From: Syntrophothermus lipocalidus DSM 12680
GTDB taxonomy: Bacteria; Bacillota; Syntrophomonadia; Syntrophomonadales; Syntrophothermaceae
Direction: 5' to 3'
Assembly: GCF_000092405.1 (NCBI RefSeq)
Contig: NC_014220.1
Location: forward strand, 1,798,001-1,862,000
DNA length: 64,000 nt
In this document: positions 45,350 to 49,887 of the stretch, one piece after another
Layout: each line of letters begins with the position of its first letter
How positions within the stretch are numbered: position 1 is the first letter of the stretch
Program-made: the position numbers and the translations under genes
The notes under the pieces: model-generated
What the model was told of the DNA's origin: nothing
What the model saw: the letters and a program-made list of their open reading frames with translations, nothing else
Database searches by the model: none

Positions 45350-46015
45350 CTATAACCATTCCGGCCGCAAATAAAGCGTTAAGGGTTTGACCTCCGTGTC
45401 CGGTAACCGAACTCGAACCGCTTCGTAAAAGCAGTTCTCTACTACCAAGAAAACTACTGGTAAATTCATCCCCTGGGCATATTCCCGTACCCGTTCATGC
45501 CCGGAAATAATAATCTCCACGTCGGTATCGCCAGCCAGGTTAGGGTTGCTCACTATTCCGGTAAACCGCAGCCGCGAAGCCCTCTCCAAAGCATCTTTCA
45601 GCTCCGCAACCGCACCCAGTTCCCTCGCAAAAGAACGGTATGGATTAACAACCAAAAACATCTTGTAAGGACGGTCACGCATATAGGGACGAAGATATCC
45701 CAAGACCTGTGCTCCTACCTCATCGCCTCCCACATCCAGCACCATCTCGTTTTCCATTCCGAGGTAACCCACTATTTCGGGCGGCACCTGAGGCACGTCC
45801 CCGAAACGAAGCCGCTCCACAGGAGCCAGCAGTTTCACCCGGTTTACGCTTAATACCTTTTCCAATTCCCGCGAGCAGAAGTAGGGGTTTACCATGTCCA
45901 GGTCAGCCAAAACCACCTGCTCGCAGCTACGAACCAACTTCAGAGCATAATTCAGAGCGGTCTCGCTCTTACCGCTCCCAAACCCGCCGGCAAATATAGT
46001 GATATTGCCCAACAC
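45350..46015 (-). CDS. P-loop NTPase linked to the oxidoreductase operon
   Basis: A 221-residue MinD/ArsA-like P-loop protein with GGFGSGKSE (Walker A, K16), VVLADLDMVNPYF (switch I) and MVLDVGGDEVGAQVLGYL (switch II). It lies 20 bases upstream of korD on the same strand and is probably the first gene of this operon. It may act in cluster or cofactor insertion, activation or regulation of the oxidoreductase. I know of no defined function; the role is inferred from position. Confidence 0.8.
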   Translation of the reverse strand: MLGNITIFAGGFGSGKSETALNYALKLVRSCEQVVLADLDMVNPYFCSRELEKVLSVNRVKLLAPVERLRFGDVPQVPPEIVGYLGMENEMVLDVGGDEVGAQVLGYLRPYMRDRPYKMFLVVNPYRSFARELGAVAELKDALERASRLRFTGIVSNPNLAGDTDVEIIISGHERVREYAQGMNLPVVFLVVENCFYEAVRVRLPDTEVKPLTLYLRPEWL

Positions 46016-46201
46016 CTCTACCTTCCCGAATCCCTAATACTAATCGATAATATAGAATACATTACCCGCAAAAGCAACATGAAATTGCCGGGTTCGACTT
46101 TACCCGTCGAGCCAAAAAAATCGGCGCCAAGACTGGTGACCCGGCAGGACAAGTGCATTACAATGAAGTATAAGTAGATAAACGTCTTGGGGAGGATCGT
46201 A

Positions 46202-49200
46202 ATGTCTTCAGAACAAAGCGCAATTCTGGAAGCCTTATTTGATCAAAGCATAGAAGAAGCAGCAAAACAAGTGCAGACGATGCAGGACGTCGACCTCATC
46301 ATCGGTATACCCTTTTACAACGAAAAAGAAGTCCTGCCTGAGGTCTTGGCCCTGGTACAAAAAGGCCTTCAAGATATCGAGCCTCTTAGGGCTGCCCTTC
46401 TCCTCTGTGTAGGGGATCCGGCTGGAGCTGAAGTGCTGGAAGTAATCAACCAGGCAGGCTTGAACGTTCCTTTTTGCGGGTTCCTGATGAAACCCGGTAT
46501 CAACGGACGGGGATCAAGTATCAGGGCCATAATTGAGATAGCGAACCTGCTTACAGCCGACTTGGTCATACTAGCTGCCGACCTTAAGCAAGAAGGATTG
46601 CGGGGTTTTCAACCCGACTGGATTCGCCGTTTGCTGACACCTATAAGAGAAGAACACGATCTGGCCGTAGGTAATTTCGAACGGCATCACTTCGAAGATG
46701 TCATCGGAGGGCTCTTCGCGGCTCCTTTGCTTGAAACCTATTACGGCTACCGGTTTCAAGATCCCTTGAGCGGTGTCTACGCCATGTCCCACGATCTAGT
46801 AGAAAACTATGCTATAGAAATCAAGTTTTGGACTGACATCACCCAGGGTTACGGCATCGACCCCTGGCTAGTCACCCGAGCTATTATTTGGAATAAGAAA
46901 ATTTGCGAAGTCAAGCTCGGAGCCAAACTGGCCGCTGCTTCCCTGGAAAAAGTTAACTACGTCTTCAAAGAAACCGCGGCTTCGCTCTTTACTTGCTTAA
47001 AGAAAGATGAAGACTACTGGACCGCTCGCCCGAGTTCCATAGCTCGAACTCCCGACATATCCGGGTGCGAATATCGCGACACTCCTTATGCAGCGTCTTT
47101 TTCTCTGCGAGACCTCGTTTTGACTTTCAAGCGCAGTTTCAATCACTACAATGTTCTTTACCGAAAAACTCTGCCTCAAGAAGTGTACAACGTTTTAGAA
47201 AAAATAGTTTATACGCCTACCAGAGACTTTAACCACACTGACCCGGTGTGCAGTTTCAACGCCAACATCTGGGCTCAGCTGGTCAACCGTTTCCTTATCC
47301 ATTACTGGTTTGACAACGGCATACAGCGGGATGACATTTTGAACGCCCTCACCTTCGCCTTTGACGGCAGGCTGGCCTGCTTTGTCTCAGAGTTAACAGA
47401 AATAGAAGAATCCTTTGGTAAGACCGCGGTCCCGGTTAGCTTACCGACCTTCATGAAAGCGGCAGCTAACGCCTTGAAAACCCAGCAAAGCGATGAATTT
47501 CGCGAACTGAAAGAAGACTTTACGAAAACTTGGTTGGAAAAAGCCCAAGAGATAAAACCTCCACTGACCCCAACTTATTACTTAGAGTTTATCCCCGGCA
47601 TGCCGGTCATCTTGCCTAAACGAATCGAAGGCAGGGGCGGCCGGGTCGTCTGGACGGAAGGTGTGTTCAATAGACTGCAAAACAAGTACCAGGATGCTTT
47701 TAACCGGTTTATCACTTCCGGCCTAGGGCTAGCACAAGATGCGGATCCCGGTACCATCGTCCGGGCTCTACGGGATTTTATGTACGAATTAGAAATAGTC
47801 TTAGAGCGCATGATTCCGGGAGATCTCTACGCCGAGGAAGGAGCAGAAGCAGTGGTACAAGGCATCTTCGGGTTGATGCCCATACCTAAGATGTTCAGCA
47901 TCAAGACCGATGTCTTCAAAGAAATGCTGCTCCGTTTTCCGCCGCTCAACGTCATCATTCCTGCCGGCTTCAAGACAGCCCGCGAGCTCATAGATAACAT
48001 GGATGCCCGTGATGCTACCAGCCTGGCCAATCTTATGGAAAACAGGAAATACGTGGACCGGGCCTTGTTGTGGATTCTGGACAACATTACGCCTGAGGAC
48101 ATGGCTGAGGTTGACATCAAGCCGATTGTCCTGGGGAGCAAGGTTCTGGGAGGAACAGTTCGTCAGGGCAGCATTTCTGATATCAACAAGATTACAACCC
48201 GCATAACTGTTAACCCCTTGAGCAAAGGACTAGGTGGCGAATTTCCGCGGCTGCGATACTGCCTGCATATATTGCGACACATAATGATAGCCCAAAACTA
48301 TTCTCTGCTCTGGAAAACGTATGCACGTGAAAAGAAAAACCTCGGTGAGAAAATCCGGAACTCCTTGATCGGTCGCTATCAGACCGACGCCTTTTCTGCT
48401 CACAATATTTTCGAGAATTCCCATCACCGGGCTTTGGTGAACATGCTAAGAGAACTGGCGCAAAAGCTGTGTACCCAAGATCAACTCGACAACGCGCGTG
48501 CCCTCGAGTTGATGGCTGAAAGCTATGGACTCAGCCAGATTCTTGATGATGGTACTTTCCTTCCCTGTTCTGCCTGGACCTGGGCCAGTTACAGTTATAA
48601 AGGAGGCAAAGGGATACCAACTCCTCTTTCCAGCCACGTAGAGGAAAAATGGTTCAACCATGACCTGCTCGAAGATATTTATAGTGAACTCGGCTATGAC
48701 GTGCAGGACATCATGCAACTGACGGTCCAACTCATCGGTGAAGGTAAAGCCAGCGAAAACTTGTTACAAGCACTGGTTGGCGGCATACCCAAAGACGTAA
48801 TAGTGGTACCACAGGAAATGGCAGATTATCCTCCAGCCAAGCCCCTGGTGAGATACGAAGGCAACCCCATCCTTTCTCCCATAAAAGACCATCCTTGGGA
48901 AAGCAAATACGTCCTCAATGCCGGTACCTTCCGTCTCAAAGATAAAGTCTATATCCTCTACCGGGCTTACGGAGATGATGAGGTATCGCGTATCGGGCTG
49001 GCAATATCTGAAGGTTATAACATCCTGGAAAGGCTGCCCGAACCGGTATACTTCCCGGCTGATGCCAAAGAGAAAAAGGGATGTGAAGACCCGAGGGTAG
49101 TAGTCATCGATAACGAGCTGTACATGGTATACACCGCTTATGACGGCCAGATTGCCCAGATCGCCGCGGCCTCCATCAGCCTGGACGACTTTCTGAACCG

Positions 49201-49804
49201 CCGTTTTGACCGTTGGAAACGAATTGGCCTGGCTTTCGAAGATATATGGAATAAAGACGCCATTATATTCCCGGAAAAGATAAATAACAAGTACGTTATT
49301 TATCACCGAATCGAGCCCAGCGTATGGGTCTCTTACATGGATGAACTGGCCTTCCCAGTTCCGAAAGAGAAACATGCCATCATATTCGGTCCGCGCTCCG
49401 GGCGGATGTGGGACTCTCTGAAGATCGGAGCGGGGACTCAGCCCATTAAGACCAGATACGGATGGTTGATGATCTACCACGGGGTAGATCGTAATCGGGT
49501 TTATCGTCTGGGAGTAATACTGGTGGATCACAACAACCCCGCGCGGGTTCTGTACCGTTCACCCAACCCCATACTTTCCCCCGAAACCGAATATGAAATA
49601 GGCAAACCGGGAGAATCGTGGGTCCCGAATGTCGTTTTCACCTGCGGAGCTGTTCCGGTAGAGGATAAACCTGTTCTCGGTGCCGAAGACGAAATCCTCG
49701 TATACTACGGCGCTGCCGATACGCACGTCTGTGTAGCTTCCGGTAAGGTCGGAGATCTTATTCCGGAGCCGGTGAGAAAATCCATTACCTGTTCGGTAGT
49801 CTAA
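46202..49804 (+). CDS. Glycosyltransferase fused to GH130-type mannoside phosphorylase domain
   Basis: A 1200-residue protein. Residues ~30-330 resemble a GT-A transferase of the mannosylglycerate/glucosyl-3-phosphoglycerate synthase kind (LIIGIPFYNEKEVLPEVLAL; AADLKQEG where a DxD is expected; GYGIDPWLVTRAI). Residues ~330-870 are helical and unassigned. Residues ~875-1190 match GH130 (YEGNPILSPIKDHPWESKYV, LYRAYGDDEVSRIGLAIS, GCEDPRVVVIDNELYMVYTA followed by YD, the expected catalytic Asp). GH130 enzymes phosphorolyse or hydrolyse beta-mannosides. The ATG at 46202 follows GGGGAGG. It is monocistronic. It may make and recycle a mannose-containing solute; the product is unknown. Confidence 0.88.
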   Translation: MSSEQSAILEALFDQSIEEAAKQVQTMQDVDLIIGIPFYNEKEVLPEVLALVQKGLQDIEPLRAALLLCVGDPAGAEVLEVINQAGLNVPFCGFLMKPGINGRGSSIRAIIEIANLLTADLVILAADLKQEGLRGFQPDWIRRLLTPIREEHDLAVGNFERHHFEDVIGGLFAAPLLETYYGYRFQDPLSGVYAMSHDLVENYAIEIKFWTDITQGYGIDPWLVTRAIIWNKKICEVKLGAKLAAASLEKVNYVFKETAASLFTCLKKDEDYWTARPSSIARTPDISGCEYRDTPYAASFSLRDLVLTFKRSFNHYNVLYRKTLPQEVYNVLEKIVYTPTRDFNHTDPVCSFNANIWAQLVNRFLIHYWFDNGIQRDDILNALTFAFDGRLACFVSELTEIEESFGKTAVPVSLPTFMKAAANALKTQQSDEFRELKEDFTKTWLEKAQEIKPPLTPTYYLEFIPGMPVILPKRIEGRGGRVVWTEGVFNRLQNKYQDAFNRFITSGLGLAQDADPGTIVRALRDFMYELEIVLERMIPGDLYAEEGAEAVVQGIFGLMPIPKMFSIKTDVFKEMLLRFPPLNVIIPAGFKTARELIDNMDARDATSLANLMENRKYVDRALLWILDNITPEDMAEVDIKPIVLGSKVLGGTVRQGSISDINKITTRITVNPLSKGLGGEFPRLRYCLHILRHIMIAQNYSLLWKTYAREKKNLGEKIRNSLIGRYQTDAFSAHNIFENSHHRALVNMLRELAQKLCTQDQLDNARALELMAESYGLSQILDDGTFLPCSAWTWASYSYKGGKGIPTPLSSHVEEKWFNHDLLEDIYSELGYDVQDIMQLTVQLIGEGKASENLLQALVGGIPKDVIVVPQEMADYPPAKPLVRYEGNPILSPIKDHPWESKYVLNAGTFRLKDKVYILYRAYGDDEVSRIGLAISEGYNILERLPEPVYFPADAKEKKGCEDPRVVVIDNELYMVYTAYDGQIAQIAAASISLDDFLNRRFDRWKRIGLAFEDIWNKDAIIFPEKINNKYVIYHRIEPSVWVSYMDELAFPVPKEKHAIIFGPRSGRMWDSLKIGAGTQPIKTRYGWLMIYHGVDRNRVYRLGVILVDHNNPARVLYRSPNPILSPETEYEIGKPGESWVPNVVFTCGAVPVEDKPVLGAEDEILVYYGAADTHVCVASGKVGDLIPEPVRKSITCSVV

Positions 49805-49825
49805 CTAATAAATAAAAATGACATA

Positions 49826-49856
49826 CCAGGAGATACTCGATCCGAGTATCTCCTGG
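49826..49856. terminator. Perfect hairpin between convergent genes
   Basis: CCAGGAGATACTCG (49826-49839) pairs perfectly with CGAGTATCTCCTGG (49843-49856) across a 3-base loop. T-rich sequence follows on both strands after several bases, so it is probably a bidirectional terminator. Confidence 0.7.
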
Positions 49857-49887
49857 CTGTGTCTTCCCGTTTTGCATTCGGATTCGT

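Follow-up and report, generated by a model that had tools for sequence, protein, structure and literature searches.

A GT-A glycosyltransferase–GH130 fusion in Syntrophothermus lipocalidus, a candidate enzyme of beta-1,2-oligomannan turnover

The locus and its reading frame

The window analyzed here, a stretch of 64,000 nucleotides from the Syntrophothermus lipocalidus genome, carries a plus-strand gene for a protein composed of a GT-A glycosyltransferase domain with an altered active site, a middle domain and a GH130 phosphorylase domain (Table 1). The frame is open from 46187 to 49804, and the ATG at 46202 yields 1200 residues. Upstream, on the opposite strand, lie a gene for a 221-aa protein and a 2-oxoacid:ferredoxin oxidoreductase cluster; downstream, an HDOD gene on the opposite strand converges on the fusion. 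The two convergent genes are separated by an inverted repeat followed, on the minus strand, by a T-rich tail, so the fusion probably forms a separate transcription unit. The divergently transcribed 221-aa protein (45350-46015, minus strand) has a P-loop-like start, GGFGSGKSETALNYA, and no Pfam match. The host strain TGB-C1, with a genome of 2,405,559 bp, grows at 55 C on crotonate and fatty acids (PMC3035303).

Table 1. Features of the fusion gene, its flanks and the cluster around the second genomic copy (locus L062, numbered separately)
Feature	Position	Strand	Remarks
Ribosome binding site GGGGAGG	46189..46195	+	read from sequence; precedes ATG 46202
CDS, three-domain fusion	46202..49804	+	1200 aa, ATG start
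MGS/GpgS-like GT-A domain, residues 1-300	46202..47101	+	motifs PFYNEK, NGRG, AADL, DPLSG, GYGIDPW
DxD remnant A-A-D, residues 125-127	46574..46582	+	A125 at GpgS Asp134/MgS Asp100; D127 = Asp136/Asp102 (metal)
Helical extension, residues 301-444	47102..47533	+	least conserved part; common to free-standing GT homologues
Middle domain, residues 445-880	47534..48841	+	mostly helical; no known relative by sequence or fold
GH130 beta-propeller phosphorylase domain, residues 881-1195	48842..49786	+	profile, sequence and fold matches
E-D-P-R, residues 962-965	49085..49096	+	D963 = candidate catalytic acid (BT3780 Asp142); D963 46/46
K1018 of NKDA	49253..49255	+	probably beta-1,2 specificity Lys (BT3780 Lys199); motif alignment
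Inverted repeat, 14-15 bp	49825..49857		terminator-like hairpin between fusion and convergent HDOD gene
ManC-like gene	L062:11161-12228
Phosphomannomutase gene	L062:12432-13808
Small glycosidase-like gene	L062:4717-6027

The joining of a GT-A and a GH130 domain on one chain of 1200 residues, proposed in an earlier note on this DNA, is borne out by the open frame and by homologues that align end to end: the alignment contains 46 full-length sequences, and homologues are 37-65% identical to the window protein. The artefactual joining of adjacent genes by a frameshift or misassembly has a negligible probability and is refuted by dozens of independent assemblies in which a frame of ~1200 aa is open; shorter copies end at the contig edge where contigs were checked. 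Forms without the GT domain were also sought, and the short copies whose contigs were fetched run into contig ends.

An intact phosphorylase behind a domain without known relatives

The C-terminal domain passes the Pfam cut-off for GH130 (PF04041, residues 906-1186, E 4.7e-53, 180.6 bits against a gathering score of 26). Its nearest relatives by sequence are Teth514_1789 and Teth514_1788 (PDB 7fip E 2e-60, 9fj8 E 1e-51), the latter also being the nearest by fold search. Residues E962, D963, R965, K1018, H1035, R1036, Y1092, H1093, Y1169 and D1173 are identical in all 46 sequences of the full-length alignment, and N906, R921 and K1074 are likewise unchanged throughout. In GH130 enzymes the Asp of the D963-type motif is the sole candidate acid, and a Lys in the +1 site marks beta-1,2 specificity (PMC4599007). 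The NKDA motif with K1018 aligns to the NKDA of both Teth514 beta-1,2 phosphorylases, whereas the beta-1,4 enzyme TM1225 has NRNG at this position; similarly, the fusion has ED-PR as in beta-1,2 enzymes, and TM1225 has YD-PR. From these motifs, K1018 is probably the equivalent of BT3780 Lys199. The set D963, R1036, K1074 and H1093, present in 46/46 and matched in 7fip, marks the domain as a phosphorylase rather than a hydrolase, with presumed contacts to phosphate. Judged by its residues, the GH130 site is intact, in agreement with the phosphorylase assignment made earlier, and the phosphorylase step of the fusion is well supported.

The Teth514 enzymes of Thermoanaerobacter sp. X-514 resemble the fusion in GH130 subtype, in catalytic and +1-site motifs and in being cytoplasmic, but they are free-standing proteins of ~300 aa accompanied by sugar ABC importer genes, with neither a GT-A nor a middle domain (PMC4264767). 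The NCBIfam equivalog for beta-1,2-mannobiose phosphorylase (NF052550) scores 250.3 bits, below its cut-off of 450, so the exact GH130 substrate may differ. This missed cut-off, together with the weak resemblance of neighboring GT4 transferases to exopolysaccharide transferases, would fit action on another beta-mannoside, such as one capping a glycolipid, a wall glycan or a component of spores, in the course of envelope glycan recycling. We regard such a role as doubtful: the top GH130 relatives act on beta-1,2-mannan, the +1-site Lys is present, and inspection by eye finds no signal peptide or membrane segment in the fusion.

The middle region, undescribed according to the earlier note, is placed here at residues 445-880, for which sequence and profile searches find no Pfam, NCBIfam or PDB match. 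Folded alone, the region is predicted to be mostly helical with moderate confidence (pLDDT 72, pTM 0.74), and a PDB fold search with this model finds no match (best E 0.49), a failure to which model quality may have contributed in part. The full-length AlphaFold model (pLDDT 62, pTM 0.39) is too weak for domain packing. The most conserved stretch of the middle domain extends from SAHNIFEN..HHR to GIPTPLSSHVEEKWFNHD. Across 299 genomes of the phylum, all matches besides the free-standing GT homologues lie in fusion-length frames or fragments of them, and the middle domain occurs only in the fusion.

A glycosyltransferase domain with an altered donor site

The N-terminal ~440 residues have the GT-A fold of mannosylglycerate synthase (MGS) and GpgS, as the earlier note had suspected. 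The GT-A model, of modest quality, matches mannosylglycerate synthase 2bo7 by fold (E 6e-6), in keeping with GT78/GT81, and Pfam GT2 is hit below threshold (E 0.12 for the whole window protein; E<=0.1 in 24/40 family members). The MGS_GT profile (PF21969) matches nothing in the S. lipocalidus genome, but it matches nothing in the controls either and so says nothing about the domain. Free-standing homologues of the GT domain, found in four genomes at 23-28% identity, match GpgS (NCBIfam PRK13915 E 8e-13; PDB 7p5l E 4e-8) and thereby form a bridge from the fusion to GT78 and GT81. These free-standing transferases (L055:8413-9696, L057:2880-4190, L054 and L056) have an intact DSD, and in some loci stand beside genes for a LacI-type regulator and a solute-binding protein.

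With MGS of Rhodothermus marinus (GT78) and GpgS (GT81) the fusion shares the GT-A fold, a helical C-terminal part and several donor-site positions: E41, R103, D127, L189 and D220 align at GpgS Glu54, Lys114, Asp136, Leu209 and Glu232, which are donor-site residues (PMC2581804). Unlike these enzymes, it has two further domains attached and lacks both the first Asp of the DxD motif and the metal-binding His. In 45/46 sequences E, A, T, S or some other residue stands in place of the first Asp, so that the window copy reads A125-A-D127, and the His (MgS His217, GpgS His258) is gone from all aligned fusions, the window copy included, where LGAKLAAAS stands instead of LGVRAHRN. The GT-A domain may therefore be inactive. 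Loss of catalytic residues in either domain, the event named earlier as fatal to the enzymatic reading, has spared GH130 but does affect the GT-A domain, whose remaining Asp is moreover lost in many homologues.

We compared the GT domains of 86 copies: the 46 aligned sequences and 40 further domains from the class. They fall into two lineages, type I with AADL and D127 kept, and a paralogous sister lineage, type II, with SANM, SAHM or SAKM and D127 lost. D127 is Asp in 50/86 and lost in 36/86, the losses requiring at least four changes on a tree of the 46 sequences (built by a quick method, with long branches flagged). In about two dozen genomes of the class the sole copy found is without D127. 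Where the GH130 domains of D127-less copies were checked (alignment A1 sequences L053, L058 and L062-L065), the catalytic residues examined are kept except for one D1019N and two R1102S. Loss of the GT site in type II suggests that the conserved job of the fusion needs no metal-dependent transferase in every copy.

S. lipocalidus has two copies. The window copy is type I with D127 present, and stands alone, outside the mannan cluster; a paralogous fusion at 788-792 kb (L062:7335-10967) has a degenerate GT site and lies inside a mannose gene cluster. In the second copy NGRG, D127 and the NE of PFYNEK are lost. The median identity of its GT domain to the family is 32%, against 48% for the window copy, whereas for the middle and GH130 domains the two copies are conserved to about the same degree. 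This difference indicates steady constraint on the middle domain and the phosphorylase, and none of the kind on the transferase site.

The GT-A domain could accordingly be dead throughout, serving only as a sugar-nucleotide sensor or scaffold on a regulated phosphorylase. The replaced first Asp, the absent His, the repeated loss of D127, the genomes with D127-less copies alone and the drift of the paralogue all speak for this possibility, which we nevertheless find rather unlikely. D127 persists in the window copy, and most type II copies keep E41, GRG and GYG-D-W, a conservation for which a plain relic would have no use. Several GT-A families, besides, function without a DxD motif. The transferase step of the fusion is uncertain.

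Build-and-break on a single chain, as the earlier note envisaged, holds for the breaking, by GH130, but finds little backing for the building of the same bond. MGS and GpgS, the closest GT relatives, are retaining enzymes that form alpha bonds, and GpgS Glu232 sits, in the structure, where inverting GT-A enzymes have their catalytic base (PMC2581804). If the GT-A domain were retaining as well, it would form alpha bonds that GH130, which cuts beta bonds, could not cleave, leaving priming as the simplest catalytic role. The alignment of D220 with the base position of inverting enzymes would also allow for inversion, and profile searches bring up dolichol-phosphate mannose synthase among other inverting GT2 enzymes. 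Together with the fixation of the fusion and the proximity of GDP-mannose genes, these points are compatible with a synthase-phosphorylase pair in which GT-A makes the very beta-1,2-mannosyl bond that GH130 phosphorolyses. Given the retaining, alpha-forming nature of the closest fold and of the bridging homologues, and the incomplete donor site, we consider such a pair quite improbable.

Comparable enzymes are the mannogen transferase-phosphorylases of Leishmania (GT108; Sernee 2019, cited in PMC8950772). They are GH130-like propellers using GDP-mannose and mannose 1-phosphate, and would resemble the fusion, if its GT is active, in carrying out beta-1,2-mannan chemistry from a nucleotide sugar and mannose 1-phosphate on one polypeptide. 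As described there, one propeller domain does both in GT108, whereas the fusion has two unrelated domains and a third (PMC8950772).

Gene neighborhoods, distribution and proposed role

The usual neighbors of the fusion in the class are genes for GDP-mannose, for GT4 transferases or for a free GH130, and in several Desulfotomaculia-type loci the free GH130 belongs to the operon of the fusion. The homologue loci that we read include mannose-1-phosphate guanylyltransferase in 17 cases, phosphomannomutase in 16, GT4 in 12, and in 27 a GT4 together with a GH127-like alpha/alpha domain, either in one gene or split over two. The second S. lipocalidus copy adjoins genes for mannose-1-phosphate guanylyltransferase, phosphomannomutase, a GT4 and a small glycosidase-like protein. 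The GT4 of this cluster (L062:6006-7364) carries a C-terminal cupin of the mannose-6-phosphate isomerase type (PF01050). The Teth514 cluster is similar in containing mannose-1-phosphate guanylyltransferase, GT4 and glycosidase genes (PMC4264767). These neighborhoods of homologues lend weight to the connection with beta-1,2-mannan and GDP-mannose drawn in the earlier note.

Counted by hand from matches with E < 1e-40, a GT4/GH127-like gene or pair lies within 5 kb of 31/55 fusion loci, and such genes are present in 43 of the 48 genomes with the fusion but in only 50 of the other 350 (Fisher p 5e-26, for a species sample and ignoring kinship). The GH127-like domain, a sub-threshold Pfam match fused to or beside GT4 (L087:5664-6827; L003:11594-12682; L005:5667-7961), repeatedly accompanies both the fusion and free GH130 across the phylum. 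It is unrelated to the middle domain of the fusion (hhalign probability 0.2%).

The fusion is present in 48/398 genomes of the phylum, and four more have the free-standing GT homologue. Within the class, it is found in 55/63 genomes, 33/35 good ones and 27/29 genera. A GTDB-wide pattern scan returned only close relatives, all from Firmicutes but for one sequence labelled Deltaproteobacteria (L020), with a Peptococcaceae-type operon and fusion; since it groups within the Peptococcaceae clade and has the operon of that clade, it is probably a misbinned contig. The viral contigs searched contain no relatives, and in plasmid records only the GH130 part was matched, without a fusion. We found no paper on a GT-A/middle/GH130 fusion in the open literature. 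The altered GT-A domain, the relative-less middle domain and the intact GH130 on one chain suggest that these microbes form and reuse an internal mannose polymer so far unreported in them.

On balance, we favor the reading that the fusion is a cytosolic enzyme turning over an endogenous beta-1,2-linked oligomannan. The architecture, the intact GH130 site, the altered GT site, the distribution and the gene context are observed; we infer the direction, the substrate, the activity of the GT-A domain and the role of the middle domain. GH130 would reversibly transfer single mannoses from alpha-mannose 1-phosphate to the non-reducing end of a beta-1,2-mannan chain, high phosphate favoring chain breakdown and high mannose 1-phosphate favoring extension. 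Mannose 1-phosphate is one step from GDP-mannose, to which it would be linked by two enzymes whose genes lie near many homologues, the guanylyltransferase and the phosphomannomutase. The type I GT-A domain of the window copy, which retains D127, is most likely still able to bind a nucleotide sugar, GDP-mannose being the probable one, and may either start chains on a small acceptor or add a residue; in type II it would have turned into a binding module that is non-catalytic or needs no metal. The most likely task of the middle domain is to keep the primer or growing chain in place between the two sites.

In Thermoanaerobacter the Teth514 enzymes were proposed to salvage imported oligomannan, and the source of the beta-1,2-mannan was unknown (PMC4264767). 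In S. lipocalidus the substrate is probably endogenous, since crotonate and fatty-acid use is reported and the genome has two GH130 genes, both of them the fusions, and no other GH130. Of the products suggested in the earlier note, a cyclic mannan is without evidence, and a compatible solute of the salt type is unlikely in an organism reported at <0.5% NaCl.

A bolder form of the oligomannan-turnover reading, which we offer as speculation and think unlikely in full, makes the fusion self-sufficient: it would synthesize the primer, hold the chain and act as a reversible polymerase-phosphorylase. Its product, an intracellular beta-1,2-mannan so far unreported, would then serve the syntrophic class as a core reserve or thermoprotectant, and the middle domain would be a new primer-carrying fold. 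A phosphorolytic mannan cycle would allow activated sugar to be stored and regained with no ATP spent on rephosphorylation, and the class with the fusion in nearly all of its good genomes includes syntrophic fatty-acid oxidizers living near the energy limit. Of further interest are the conserved 440-residue domain, for which no relatives are known, and the natural series of intact and decayed GT-A domains that the family offers on an unchanged phosphorylase.
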